64,000 nucleotides of DNA, taken from positions 1-64,000 of the forward strand of contig JANRLT010000017.1 of NCBI GenBank assembly GCA_033762255.1. Reading direction: 5' to 3'. Shown here one piece after another: positions 2,067-56,653 of the stretch. The translations under genes were made by a program, and so were the position numbers. The first letter of the stretch is position 1. Every line of letters begins with the position of its first letter. The notes under the pieces are model-generated. The model was not told where the DNA came from. It saw only the letters and a program-made list of their open reading frames with translations, and ran no database searches. The DNA is from Pirellulales bacterium. GTDB taxonomy: Bacteria > Planctomycetota > Planctomycetia > Pirellulales > JALHPA01.

Positions 2067-4007
2067 TTACTTGCCACTGGCAAAGCGGTAAATTCCCTTG
2101 CCGTTGGGGGTCACGATTGACAGGTAGACCTCGCCCGCTTCGTCCTCGCCATAGGTGATCACCGGCAGACTGGGGCTGGGGATCTCATAATTTCCCAGAA
2201 CTTTTTGCGATTTTTGATCATAGTCCAACGCCCAAAGCTTGCCCGAGACATAATCGGCGTAGAGATATTTGCCAATCAGTTCGGGGACCAATTTTCCGCG
2301 ATAGACCACGCCGCCGGTGATTGACTTGCCGACTTGGTGGTCGTATTCCCAGATGGGGTCGATCAGTTCTTCGTCGTGGGTGGCTTTGGCATTGCCAAAG
2401 GGATGGGCCGCCTCGCGCAGGTTCCAGCCGTAGTTGCCCCCTTTTTTCACGATGTTGATTTCCTCCCACAAATTTTGCCCCACATCGGCCATCCACAACG
2501 CGCCCGTCTGTCGATCAAAGGCCATCCGCCACACGTTTCGCACGCCCAGGGCGTAGATTTCGGGCTTGGCGTCTTTGGTTTTGACAAAGGGGTTATCTGC
2601 GGGAATGGCGTAGTTTTGGCCGTCCCCTTTGTGATCGACATCGATGCGTAAAATTTTGCCGAGCACGGTTTTCAGGTTTTGTCCGTTCCCCTGGGGGTCA
2701 TTGCCAAAGCCCCCATCCCCCAGACCGATATACAAATACCCGTCCGGGCCAAAAGCCAGCGTCCCGCCGTTATGGTTCCAGGCGGGTTGGGGAATCGTGA
2801 GTAGGACTTCCTCAAAGTCGGGATCAGCCCGGTTGGCATCCTCCTCCGACACCCTAAACCGTGAAATCACCGACAAATGCGGCGTATGCTGGGCCGTATA
2901 ATACACAAAGAATTCGCCGTTTTTCTTAAACTGCGGATGAAAGGCCATCCCCAAGAAGCCTTCTTCGTTTTCCCTGTCAAAGTAACGCACTTTTTTACGC
3001 AGATCCAAGAATACCGTCGCCTCGGCGGTTTTGGATGGATCGTCCGCGACTTCGGCGGGGAGCACATAAATCACCCCCTGTTGGGTTGCCACAAACAGAC
3101 GGTTGCTGCCATCTCCGGCGTTGGTAATGACAATTGGGCGAAACGCCTCATTGGTGCCGTCGGCATTTTCGCCGGTCCAGCCCGCCCAGGTGACGTTTTG
3201 CAGTGCGGGTACAACCTTGACGGGTAGGGTGCCGGTGATCGGCGCCGGGCCCGAGCCGTCCGGCTTGAGCTGGCGGATTTTGATATTGCGGAATGAGACC
3301 TGATTGCCGTGATCTTGCAGGGAAATGTGACCTTTTTTGGCCTTGCCAAATAGCGGCATGGAGGCAAATTTGCTTTTGGCCACGCGGTCATTCCAGTCCT
3401 TGCTCCCTTTTTGAAAGGAACTATAGCGAATGCCGTTCATGTGGATGTCGGACTGTTGCTCAGAAATGCGGACCTGCAATTGGTTCCATTCATTGGCGGG
3501 ACGGGTGGCGTCGGGGACCTTGCCGGTCGCCCAATCGCGGTCGGCTCCGTACAGTTGATAAAGCCAGCCTGCTTTTTGCGGATCATGACCGTCCACATTG
3601 TCCTGAATTTGAATCTCGGGGCCGGTCATCCAGGGAGTATCCGCTTCCTCGGTGGAATGAAACATCAGGCCGCTATTGCCGCCGGGAGAGATTTTGTACT
3701 CTAGCGACAATTCAAAGTTATCGTATTGATCAACCGTGACGATATCGCCGCCGCCAGCCTTGGTCAGGGTCAGCTCGCCATCCGCGACCTGCCAGGCGTC
3801 GTTCAGTTTGTCACTTTTAAAGTTGCGCCATCCCGATGTGGTTTTACCATCGAACAGCAACTTCCAACCGGTTAGCTTTTCGGATTCGCTCAGGGTGTTG
3901 GCCGTGGCGGTCGCGGGGTGTTCCGCGCGGGCAAAACCCGTCCAGCCCAACCCGCAAAGCATTAACGCCAACAACAAGGCAGAACCGTGGCGGACAACGC
4001 GTGGCAT
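2067..4007 (-). CDS. Secreted DUF1080-glucose/sorbosone dehydrogenase fusion
   Basis: 646 residues. A signal peptide (residues 1-28, ending GFARA) targets it outside the cytoplasm. Residues about 45-245 are a DUF1080 (3-keto-disaccharide hydrolase, LamG-like) domain with LFDGKTTSGW, GGNSGLMFHS and EIQIQDN. Residues about 285-640 are a glucose/sorbosone dehydrogenase beta-propeller of the PQQ or soluble aldose dehydrogenase type (FLGMAFHPQF, WNHNGGTLAFGPDGYLYIGL, GVRNVWRMAFD, GGNYGW). The reading frame is open further upstream, but the ATG at 4007 directly begins the signal peptide, so I place the start there. The likely role is oxidation or binding of extracellular carbohydrate; the substrate cannot be told from sequence. 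Such fusions are typical of Planctomycetota. Confidence 0.88.
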   Translation of the reverse strand: MPRVVRHGSALLLALMLCGLGWTGFARAEHPATATANTLSESEKLTGWKLLFDGKTTSGWRNFKSDKLNDAWQVADGELTLTKAGGGDIVTVDQYDNFELSLEYKISPGGNSGLMFHSTEEADTPWMTGPEIQIQDNVDGHDPQKAGWLYQLYGADRDWATGKVPDATRPANEWNQLQVRISEQQSDIHMNGIRYSSFQKGSKDWNDRVAKSKFASMPLFGKAKKGHISLQDHGNQVSFRNIKIRQLKPDGSGPAPITGTLPVKVVPALQNVTWAGWTGENADGTNEAFRPIVITNAGDGSNRLFVATQQGVIYVLPAEVADDPSKTAEATVFLDLRKKVRYFDRENEEGFLGMAFHPQFKKNGEFFVYYTAQHTPHLSVISRFRVSEEDANRADPDFEEVLLTIPQPAWNHNGGTLAFGPDGYLYIGLGDGGFGNDPQGNGQNLKTVLGKILRIDVDHKGDGQNYAIPADNPFVKTKDAKPEIYALGVRNVWRMAFDRQTGALWMADVGQNLWEEINIVKKGGNYGWNLREAAHPFGNAKATHDEELIDPIWEYDHQVGKSITGGVVYRGKLVPELIGKYLYADYVSGKLWALDYDQKSQKVLGNYEIPSPSLPVITYGEDEAGEVYLSIVTPNGKGIYRFASGK

Positions 4008-54372: not shown

Positions 54373-55812
54373 TTATGCGGGCGGTTTACGCAATTTGATC
54401 CATTCGGTGTGAAACACCCCTTCCTTGTCCACACGATTGTAGGTGTGCGCACCAAAGTAGTCTCGCTGGGCCTGCAGCAAATTCGCCGGCAACCGCGCTT
54501 GGCGGATGCCGTCATAATAGGCCAACGCCGTAAAAAATGCCGGCATCGGTACGCCCAAGCGCGTGGCGGTGATGATCACATTGCGCCAAGCGTCCTGAGC
54601 GGCGGCGGTCGCTTGCTGAAAATACGGCGCCAGTAACAAATTCTCGAGATTGGGCTGCGCGTCAAAGGCTTCCTTGATCCGCTCTAAAAAGCGCGCCCGA
54701 ATGATGCACCCTCCGCGCCACAACAGCGCGATATTACCATAATTCAGCGGCCAATCGTGTTCCTTGGCCGCCGCCTGCAACTGCACATATCCCTGGGCGT
54801 AGCTGCAAATTTTGCTGGCATAGAGCGCCTGGCGGACTTGCTCAATAAATTCCCGCCGGTCGCCAGCGTACTTTTGGCCGATCGGGCCAGAAAGCACTTT
54901 GCTGGCGTTCACCCGCGCGGCCTTTAATGCCGACAGGCAGCGGGCGTAGACGGCCTCGGTCACGAGCGTACTAGGCACGCCCAGGTCGAGAGCCAGTTGG
55001 CTCATCCATTTGCCGGTCCCCTTGGCCCCGGCGGTGTCCAGGATCAGATCGACCATGTATTCGCCGGTTTCGGGGTCCTTGACACTGAGGATATCCCGTG
55101 TGATTTCGATGAGGTAGCTATCGAGCTCCCCTTTGTTCCACTCGGCAAAGACGTCGTACAACTCGGCGTTCGATAGGCCCAGCGCGTGCTTGAGCAGGAA
55201 ATACGCCTCGCAGATGAGCTGCATATCGCCGTATTCGATGCCGTTGTGGACCATTTTGACATATTGGCCCGCTCCGCGGGGACCGACCCATTCGCAGCAG
55301 GGGATGTCGTTGTTTGGCCCGACCTTGGCGGCGATGGCCTGAAAGATGGGTTTGACCAGGGGCCAGGCTGCGGGGGAACCGCCGGGCATCAGGCTGGGGC
55401 CTTTGAGCGCGCCTTCCTCGCCGCCGGATACGCCGGTGCCGATAAACAGCAGCCCCTTACCCTCGATATATTGGGTGCGGCGTTCAGTATTGGTGTAGTG
55501 CTCATTGCCGCCATCGATGATCACATCCCCCGGCTCCAAGAGGGGAATAAGCTGGTCGATGAGGTCGTCCACGGGTTTGCCAGCCTTGACCATCATCATG
55601 ATCTTGCGCGGGCGGGCGACATTTTTTACCAGTTCCTCCAGTGAGTGGCAGCCGATGAACTTTTTTCCGGCGGCGCGGCCGGCGATTAGTTCATCCACGA
55701 CCGAGGTGGTGCGGTTGAACACGGCGATCGTGTAGCCGCGGCTTTCGATATTGAGGGCGAGATTCTCGCCCATGACTGCCAGACCAATGAGACCAAAATC
55801 AGCGAGGGGCAT
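54373..55812 (-). CDS. gnd: 6-phosphogluconate dehydrogenase, decarboxylating
   Basis: 479 residues, the long homodimeric form. It oxidises 6-phosphogluconate to ribulose-5-phosphate, CO2 and NADPH in the pentose phosphate pathway. The Rossmann start GLIGLAVMGENLALNIESRG, VIIDGGNEHYTNTERR, GTGVSGGEEGALKGPSLMPG and the catalytic KMVHNGIEYGDMQLICEAY with Lys-His-Asn are intact. An Asn-Arg-Thr after strand 2 (FNRTTS) indicates NADP. A REP element (55825-55846) begins only 13 nt upstream of the ATG, in what should be the 5-prime leader. Confidence 0.96.
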   Translation of the reverse strand: MPLADFGLIGLAVMGENLALNIESRGYTIAVFNRTTSVVDELIAGRAAGKKFIGCHSLEELVKNVARPRKIMMMVKAGKPVDDLIDQLIPLLEPGDVIIDGGNEHYTNTERRTQYIEGKGLLFIGTGVSGGEEGALKGPSLMPGGSPAAWPLVKPIFQAIAAKVGPNNDIPCCEWVGPRGAGQYVKMVHNGIEYGDMQLICEAYFLLKHALGLSNAELYDVFAEWNKGELDSYLIEITRDILSVKDPETGEYMVDLILDTAGAKGTGKWMSQLALDLGVPSTLVTEAVYARCLSALKAARVNASKVLSGPIGQKYAGDRREFIEQVRQALYASKICSYAQGYVQLQAAAKEHDWPLNYGNIALLWRGGCIIRARFLERIKEAFDAQPNLENLLLAPYFQQATAAAQDAWRNVIITATRLGVPMPAFFTALAYYDGIRQARLPANLLQAQRDYFGAHTYNRVDKEGVFHTEWIKLRKPPA

Positions 55813-55824
55813 GGGGGGTACCTT

Positions 55825-55892
55825 GTAGGAGGCGACTCTGTCGCCGGGAAAACGCGGTCATTTGCAAATTGTAGGAGGCGACTCCGTTGCCG
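55825..55892 (+). repeat. REP pair upstream of gnd (GTAG orientation plus)
   Basis: Two elements, GTAGGAGGCGACTCTGTCG, then CCG (55825-55846), and GTAGGAGGCGACTCCGTTG, then CCG (55871-55892). Each is GTAG plus an imperfect hairpin (GGCGAC with GTCGCC). They face the two REPs on the far side of the RAYT gene. Confidence 0.85.
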
Positions 55893-55974
55893 AACCAAAA
55901 CCGTCGCCAAATCAAAACACAGTCAATTCCAAATGTAGCCGAAACGAAAACTGTCCCCGAATCATAACGCTAAA

Positions 55975-56568
55975 TCACCCAAAAAACCAACTTCGATCCA
56001 ACATTTCCTTGCGGCTGAAATGTGCCGATGAATATCGCCAATCGGACGCTTGTTTGACCAATTCAGCACGAACAGGATTGCGTTCAATATATTCCGCCCG
56101 CTCGAAGATATCTTCCGCATCTCGGCAACGATGGTCAAAAAAACCATCTTGCCAGAATGAGCCAGACCGCTTGAGACATTTGTTTATGGTTAGGGTGGTA
56201 TAACGAAACATCCGCTGAAGTAACTCCGACAGCGGCTCATGCGTTGTCAAGCAAAATAGCAGATGCAAATGATCCGGCATAATGCAAAAGGCGAGCAATC
56301 GCAATTCATTCTTACCACGAAGAAAGTTTATACTATCGAGAATTATCTGTGGCAATGGTTCTTGGTTAAGCACTCGTCTGCGATTTTCAACACACTTGGT
56401 AATTGAATAGGTTGCATATTTTTCCGAAATCCGGCCCTTGCGAAGATTCTTTTGATGCCAAACGGGTTCGGCGATATTAACGCAGGATTCGGCGACGGAG
56501 TCGCCTCCTACAAATGCAGATTTGGCTAATTCAATATTAATCAAATCAAGATTCATCAGCTTGTTCAT
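55975..56568 (-). CDS. REP-associated tyrosine transposase (RAYT)
   Basis: 197 residues from the ATG at 56568; ATG 56556 or TTG 56619 are alternatives. It is a Y1 HUH single-strand transposase. The HUH pair is in FCIMPDHLHLLF (His100 and His102), the likely nucleophile is Tyr123 in RMFRYTTLTIN, and the family ending is YIERNPVRAELVKQASDWRY, then SS. No frameshift is seen. The N-terminus is odd: codons about 20-27 are the REP element at 56490-56511 translated (FVGGDSVAE), so either the REP was inserted into the gene or translation really begins later at a non-standard start. A/T content is higher than in neighbouring genes. RAYTs act on REP palindromes, which flank it here. Confidence 0.88.
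   Translation of the reverse strand: MNKLMNLDLINIELAKSAFVGGDSVAESCVNIAEPVWHQKNLRKGRISEKYATYSITKCVENRRRVLNQEPLPQIILDSINFLRGKNELRLLAFCIMPDHLHLLFCLTTHEPLSELLQRMFRYTTLTINKCLKRSGSFWQDGFFDHRCRDAEDIFERAEYIERNPVRAELVKQASDWRYSSAHFSRKEMLDRSWFFG
56490..56511 (-). repeat. REP inside the RAYT N-terminal region
   Basis: GTAGGAGGCGACTCCGTCG, then CCG, read on the minus strand. It lies within the open frame of the transposase. Confidence 0.83.
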
Positions 56569-56631
56569 GCTATCTAGGGTATTAGGTAATTCTGGAAGGG
56601 CATTCGGAGACACCTGCAATGCGATGCTGTT

Positions 56632-56653
56632 CGGCGACAGAGTCGCCTCCTAC
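56632..56653 (-). repeat. REP overlapping the HAD gene stop codon
   Basis: GTAGGAGGCGACTCTGTCG, then CCG, on the minus strand. TAG of its GTAG (56650-56652) is the stop codon of the phosphatase gene. Confidence 0.85.

Follow-up and report, generated by a model that had tools for sequence, protein, structure and literature searches.

A RAYT gene bounded by facing REPs and a genome-wide population of singlet and direct-repeat REPs in a Pirellulales bacterium

REPtrons, REPINs, REPs lying 3' of genes and supplying TAG stop codons, singlet-dominated REP families and GTAG repeats in Planctomycetes have all been described, according to excerpts of PMC2817692, PMC3686654, PMC3116915, PMC8049555, PMC6006769, PMC3733652 and PMC8266576. 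In some pseudomonads, these excerpts add, RAYTs occupy a novel site. In the relevant passages, RAYTs are regarded as domesticated and REPtrons apparently do not transpose as a unit (PMC6006769), and REP singlets are taken as remnants of REPINs (PMC8049555). A phrase search of a limited literature collection found no paper on a REP-associated tyrosine transposase in Planctomycetota.

An HUH-Y1 transposase, a GTAG foot and a short perfect stem are shared by the locus reported here and the group 3 (subclass 2.5) TnpA-REP systems of Stenotrophomonas maltophilia and Marinomonas Mb, as excerpted from PMC8266576. According to the same excerpts, the Marinomonas Mb REP has two bases between GTAG and the stem, like the REP studied here, and loop positions are critical in group 3; loop identity is conserved in our REPs. 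Being short, perfect and near GTAG, the palindromes appear to be of the group 3 kind, a likeness judged from the REP sequence. Unlike group 3 as presented there, the present system has a Planctomycetota host, a TCC/TCT loop, and sense singlets with direct repeats. With the GTAG REP families and REPtrons of an excerpted survey that includes Planctomycetes (PMC3733652) it shares the phylum, the GTAG foot, the presence of REPtrons, REPs giving TAG stops, REPs 3' of genes and singlet-dominated families, compared by description; the excerpt states no REP strand with respect to the upstream gene. A RAYT-linked REP population is held in common with the Pseudomonas REPINs (excerpts of PMC3116915 and PMC8049555), and inverted pairs are found in one relative, genome G009. 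The E. coli TnpA-REP (PDB 4er8) has the same catalytic residues; our REP lacks the bulge that E. coli REPs are described as having.

The locus lies in a window of 64,000 nucleotides (contig JANRLT010000017.1, positions 1 to 64,000) of a Pirellulales bacterium. The named relatives belong to Planctomycetota, two of them to Pirellulales, in agreement with an earlier sequence-only reading that had called the genome planctomycete-like. We consider it highly probable that the locus is part of a REP/RAYT system (REPtron) which copies probably single REPs and whose unit was inserted as a block between a HAD-family hydrolase gene and a 6-phosphogluconate dehydrogenase (6PGD) gene.

The RAYT gene and its four palindromes

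The following features were located in the window:

54373..55812, minus strand: flanking 6PGD gene (Pfam 6PGD, NAD_binding_2)
55825..56653, no strand assigned: REP-bounded RAYT unit between the HAD and 6PGD genes, in a gap of 837 bp
55825..55845, plus strand: outer left REP, GC subfamily, perfect stem, 12 nt ahead of the 6PGD start codon
55871..55891, plus strand: inner left REP, one G-T mismatch in the stem, between the GC and AT subfamilies
55975..56568, minus strand: intact RAYT (REP-associated tyrosine transposase) ORF with H100, H102, Y160 and N164; start codon uncertain
56491..56511, minus strand: inner right REP, GC subfamily, in the 5'-terminal part of the RAYT ORF
56633..56653, minus strand: outer right REP, GC subfamily; its TAG is the HAD gene stop codon
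56650..57519, minus strand: flanking HAD-family hydrolase gene (Pfam HAD_2/Hydrolase)

The gene at 55975-56568 is a RAYT. Its product scores 114.6 bits against NCBIfam NF047646 (REP_Tyr_transpos, cut-off 80) and 51.5 bits against Pfam Y1_Tnp; with 26.3 bits it stays under the cut-off of 55 of the curated IS200 model NF033573, and is not assigned to IS200/IS605. Both by sequence and by fold, the best PDB match was 4er8 (TnpA-REP; fold E 2.2e-10), the fold search having been made with a predicted model of pLDDT 82.8 in which residues 1-45 are below 50. The HxH residues H100 and H102, the catalytic Y160 and N164, four residues past it, are invariant in all ten aligned sequences. The gene is present in a single copy in the genome, where the next best RAYT is 29% identical.

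Facing each other around the gene are four 21-nt palindromes, GTAGGAGGCGACTCYGTYGCC in form, with two per strand; they are the only exact GTAGGAGGCGACTC copies in the window. Two further window matches to GTAGGAGGCGACTC have three mismatches, with about 3.6 chance matches expected at up to three mismatches. The sequence-only reading had the transposase gene bracketed by two plus-strand and two minus-strand GTAG-led palindromes, all of which were located. It had also put the minus-strand pair at the 5' side of the gene, which is correct for the outer right REP; the inner right one lies inside the ORF. Its view of the arrangement as that of a REPtron was borne out, the flanking palindromes facing each other as in published REPtrons around a gene that is a RAYT.

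In each of these REPs a 6-bp GGCGAC/GTCGCC stem with a TCY loop starts two bases past GTAG. An alternative GGAG/CTCC stem, spotted by eye, was dropped, as DNA folding of the copies yields the GGCGAC stem. The 55871 copy folds poorly (-3.2 kcal/mol, z -0.7) and the other three reach -6.5 kcal/mol (z -2.8 to -3.1; DNA fold).

The inner right REP codes for part of ..FVGGDSVAES.. in the ORF, and on reading the ORF no ATG, GTG or TTG was found between this REP and the conserved domain. In two related loci (L084 and L057) the REP ends just ahead of a start codon, which suggests that the RAYT start in the window has shifted upstream or that a rare start codon is in use.

Sites of the unit in related genomes

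The HAD locus was fetched for 29 of the 42 matches outside the window. In 27 of these relatives the HAD and 6PGD genes adjoin without a RAYT; the other two have no 6PGD gene in the fetched flank. Empty sites, for which the sequence-only reading had proposed a test, are present in this way at the level of gene order, which does not place the joints of the insert. The HAD-6PGD gap of 837 bp compares with -4 to 439 bp in the 27 relatives and with 30 bp in the sole same-family genome of the comparison, itself 73% complete. The outer right REP provides the HAD stop codon where the HAD proteins of the relatives end. At gene-order level the unit is shown to have entered this junction as a block, by a mechanism that we infer.

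Among 396 genomes of the order, eight contain a RAYT match at E 1e-25 or better, one each. The RAYT loci of the relatives examined are bordered by a REP of their own, with GTRGGAGG, a stem that varies between lineages but remains paired, a loop starting TCC, and then GA. Outside the window, gene names are readings of translations. In locus L085 the RAYT lies between transglutaminase-like and GTPase genes, which adjoin each other in 18 of the 30 relatives fetched. Here a 101-bp direct repeat (L085:2842-2942 and 3565-3665, 93% identical), made up of a host gene 3' end and a REP, lies on either side of the RAYT. The RAYTs of five genomes of family f7 are all situated between leuS and glgC, and these two genes adjoin without a RAYT in 10 of 30 fetched loci, including G024 and G047 of f7. 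A fourth place holds the RAYT of L084. The RAYT is codirectional with both neighbouring genes at every one of the four sites. The f7 genomes have inherited the REP-RAYT-REP unit in one place; in other families it is found elsewhere.

The same inverted-repeat arms border the unit in G080 (occupied) and a short gap in G024 (empty); since these arms are a repeat type, the match is supportive and not decisive. The leuS-glgC gap of L251 and L282 contains a long GCCAAGGACGCCAAGAGCGCC-type inverted repeat, its arms close together when the site is empty and split by the RAYT unit when it is occupied.

A stepwise arrival, in which the gap between HAD and 6PGD first received REPs and the RAYT came later by homologous recombination between them, without any block insertion, is a possible course of events to which we give some weight. 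Two REPs stand on each side of the RAYT, REPs occur near the 3' ends of many genes, and the 101-bp repeat around the L085 RAYT resembles what recombination leaves. The f7 unit argues against it, having one REP per side and hardly varying in length (about 565 bp).

The REP population of the genome

The genome (5.47 Mb in 72 contigs, 96.6% complete) contains 45 exact 14-mers, with none for the reversed control, and 112 places matching the 21-mer with up to three mismatches, with one for the control. The repeat is far above chance level. A genome-wide count had been proposed by the sequence-only reading, with an element occurring only at this locus as the refuting outcome; with about 100 genomic copies this did not arise. 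Within one mismatch there are 94 copies in this genome, and among 56 other genomes two to four in three and none in 53.

Copy analyses cover 100 listed places of the 112, the 12 divergent ones being left out. One of two subfamily consensuses is matched exactly by 71 copies, of which 40 have G-C at stem pair 9-17 and 31 have A-T there. Over all 100 copies this pair is GC in 58, AT in 38, TC in three and GT in one, the last being the 55871 copy beside the RAYT. The stem is perfectly paired in 80 copies and, as seen at the pair 9-17, is maintained by paired change. The GTAG foot is at least 95% conserved at every position; a T stands just before 92 copies and GA just after 99, the 3' consensus being GAA/GAT without a T-run. 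The many consensus-identical copies, together with the intact catalytic residues, fit the suggestion of the sequence-only reading that the system is active or recently active.

A second RAYT serving the AT subfamily was considered and rejected: of seven RAYT-like places, the four others scanned have different flanking hairpins (the flanks on C6 and C60 lay outside the scan). Further RAYT genes of the genome are on contigs C35, C65, C30 and C47 (L032 to L035, respectively), with other GTAG-led hairpin families nearby. On C65, hairpins of two types adjoin back to back, one type per strand, as in classical mosaics. Hairpins resembling the C65 RAYT family follow within 40 nt downstream of 13 of the 100 REPs (L125, L151-L153, L162, L163, L165, L172, L177, L178 and L181), which indicates that REP families stack on each other. 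By eye, the 5' flank CACGGAGAARACAWTCT common to about a dozen REPs (L121-L189) is another dispersed intergenic repeat.

The copies of this genome are mainly singlets and direct repeats. Of 24 cases of neighbouring REPs up to 600 bp apart, 23 share one orientation, and 36 of the 100 REPs have a same-strand partner within 200 bp and with up to five mismatches. An inverted partner within 200 bp and with up to five mismatches was found for only two REPs, forming one pair, against one in 100 with shuffled flanks; degenerate inverted partners in this range are not above background, and close inverted pairs of the REPIN type do not characterise this genome, unlike the Pseudomonas genomes of the REPIN excerpts cited above (PMC3116915, PMC8049555). 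In G009, the RAYT of which is 50% identical to ours, all 16 neighbour pairs are inverted (70 exact places listed of 156), as are all nine in G026 (all 41 places). These pairs are 41-59 bp apart, in G009 about 47 bp. Several direct repeats in the window's genome have one flank in common, by eye, as expected of tandem duplication. When joined flanks were compared by BLAST with the stretches fetched, no clean empty REP site was seen within the genome, the matches being mostly occupied sites and a few repeat-rich loci. The leuS-glgC gap had suggested that REPs sit in loops of larger inverted repeats; this idea was discarded, flank complementarity of 75 clusters not being above that of shuffled pairings.

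The REP of G009 is present in 156 copies in that genome, 41 in its congener G026, 15 in G019 and none in 54 others. Against the REPtron reading stands G026, in which, with its 41 REPs, a RAYT match at E 1e-10 is absent. The REP of G007 has four copies in G007 and one in G047; as G007 has an intact RAYT relative, this argues against the simple expectation that many REPs go with every RAYT.

Gene positions around the REPs were taken from a crude codon-usage ORF caller. Outside called ORFs lie 96 of the 100 REPs; the four intragenic calls are antisense to their ORFs and may be false. In 81 of 93 callable cases the REP shares its strand with the gene on its 5' side (60 of 71 with clusters collapsed), and between codirectional genes 37 of 45 REPs are in sense. 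The left REPs of the RAYT unit (55825 and 55871) are two of the exceptions. Both orientations occur within single contigs, so the bias tracks genes and not contigs. The 5' flanks are rich in G (2079 G, 1126 C); a general intergenic property was ruled out as the reason, the sense intergenic skew of the window being -0.02. The sense bias could arise either if REPs insert behind genes into displaced single strands or if other positions are selected against.

Taken with the position behind genes and the sense orientation, the single-copy RAYT, its fixed locus in five f7 genomes and the REPINs of G009 and G026 would suit a domesticated RAYT with a host function, the REPs being fossil REPIN remnants that now act as 3' UTR RNA hairpins. 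We regard this as unlikely, given RAYTs at four different loci in the clade, no excess of degenerate inverted partners and the high share of copies identical to their subfamily consensus, with isolated ones (43 of 59 exact) no more decayed than clustered ones (28 of 41). A reading of the palindromes as ordinary transcription terminators or 3' UTR hairpins unconnected with the transposase, for which the sense orientation behind genes speaks, is highly improbable in view of the missing T-run, the conserved GTAG foot, the distinct REP versions at the borders of RAYT relatives and a high copy number limited to few genomes.

Proposed working of the system

For the favoured REPtron reading, with single REPs copied and the unit inserted as a block, the following course is proposed. 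The RAYT would bind single-stranded REP DNA in its folded form, by way of the GTAG foot, the short, perfectly paired stem and the conserved TCC/TCT loop. Y160, aided by H100, H102 and N164, would cut next to the REP, and a copy would be strand-transferred elsewhere. Such activity, the cutting of the REP as single-stranded DNA included, is predicted by analogy to characterised TnpA-REP proteins. From the organisation of the copies, what is copied is most likely one REP of about 24 nt (T, the 21-mer and GA) and not an inverted REPIN pair. Copies would settle mostly 3' of genes and in sense, and some loci would later expand by tandem duplication of the REP with its flank. The REP-RAYT-REP block itself may have reached the HAD-6PGD junction by transfer or relocation.

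A tentative extension, which we judge somewhat unlikely, is that the block is a slow mobile cassette ended by REPs, and that its transposase would spread REPs singly behind genes, into the displaced non-template strand; REPIN formation would then be optional and lineage-specific, and not the replicative unit of every system.

The REP/RAYT system is of an already known kind, here in Pirellulales, and its singlet mode and multiple unit sites are worth following. A natural contrast is offered within one order, by related RAYTs (50% identical) of which one belongs to a genome with inverted pairs of about 47 bp and one to a genome with sense singlets. Four loci hold units, and for three of these both occupied and empty junctions are seen. 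Two open questions become testable in this way: what sets the replicative unit, and whether a transposase gene can travel between its own REPs.
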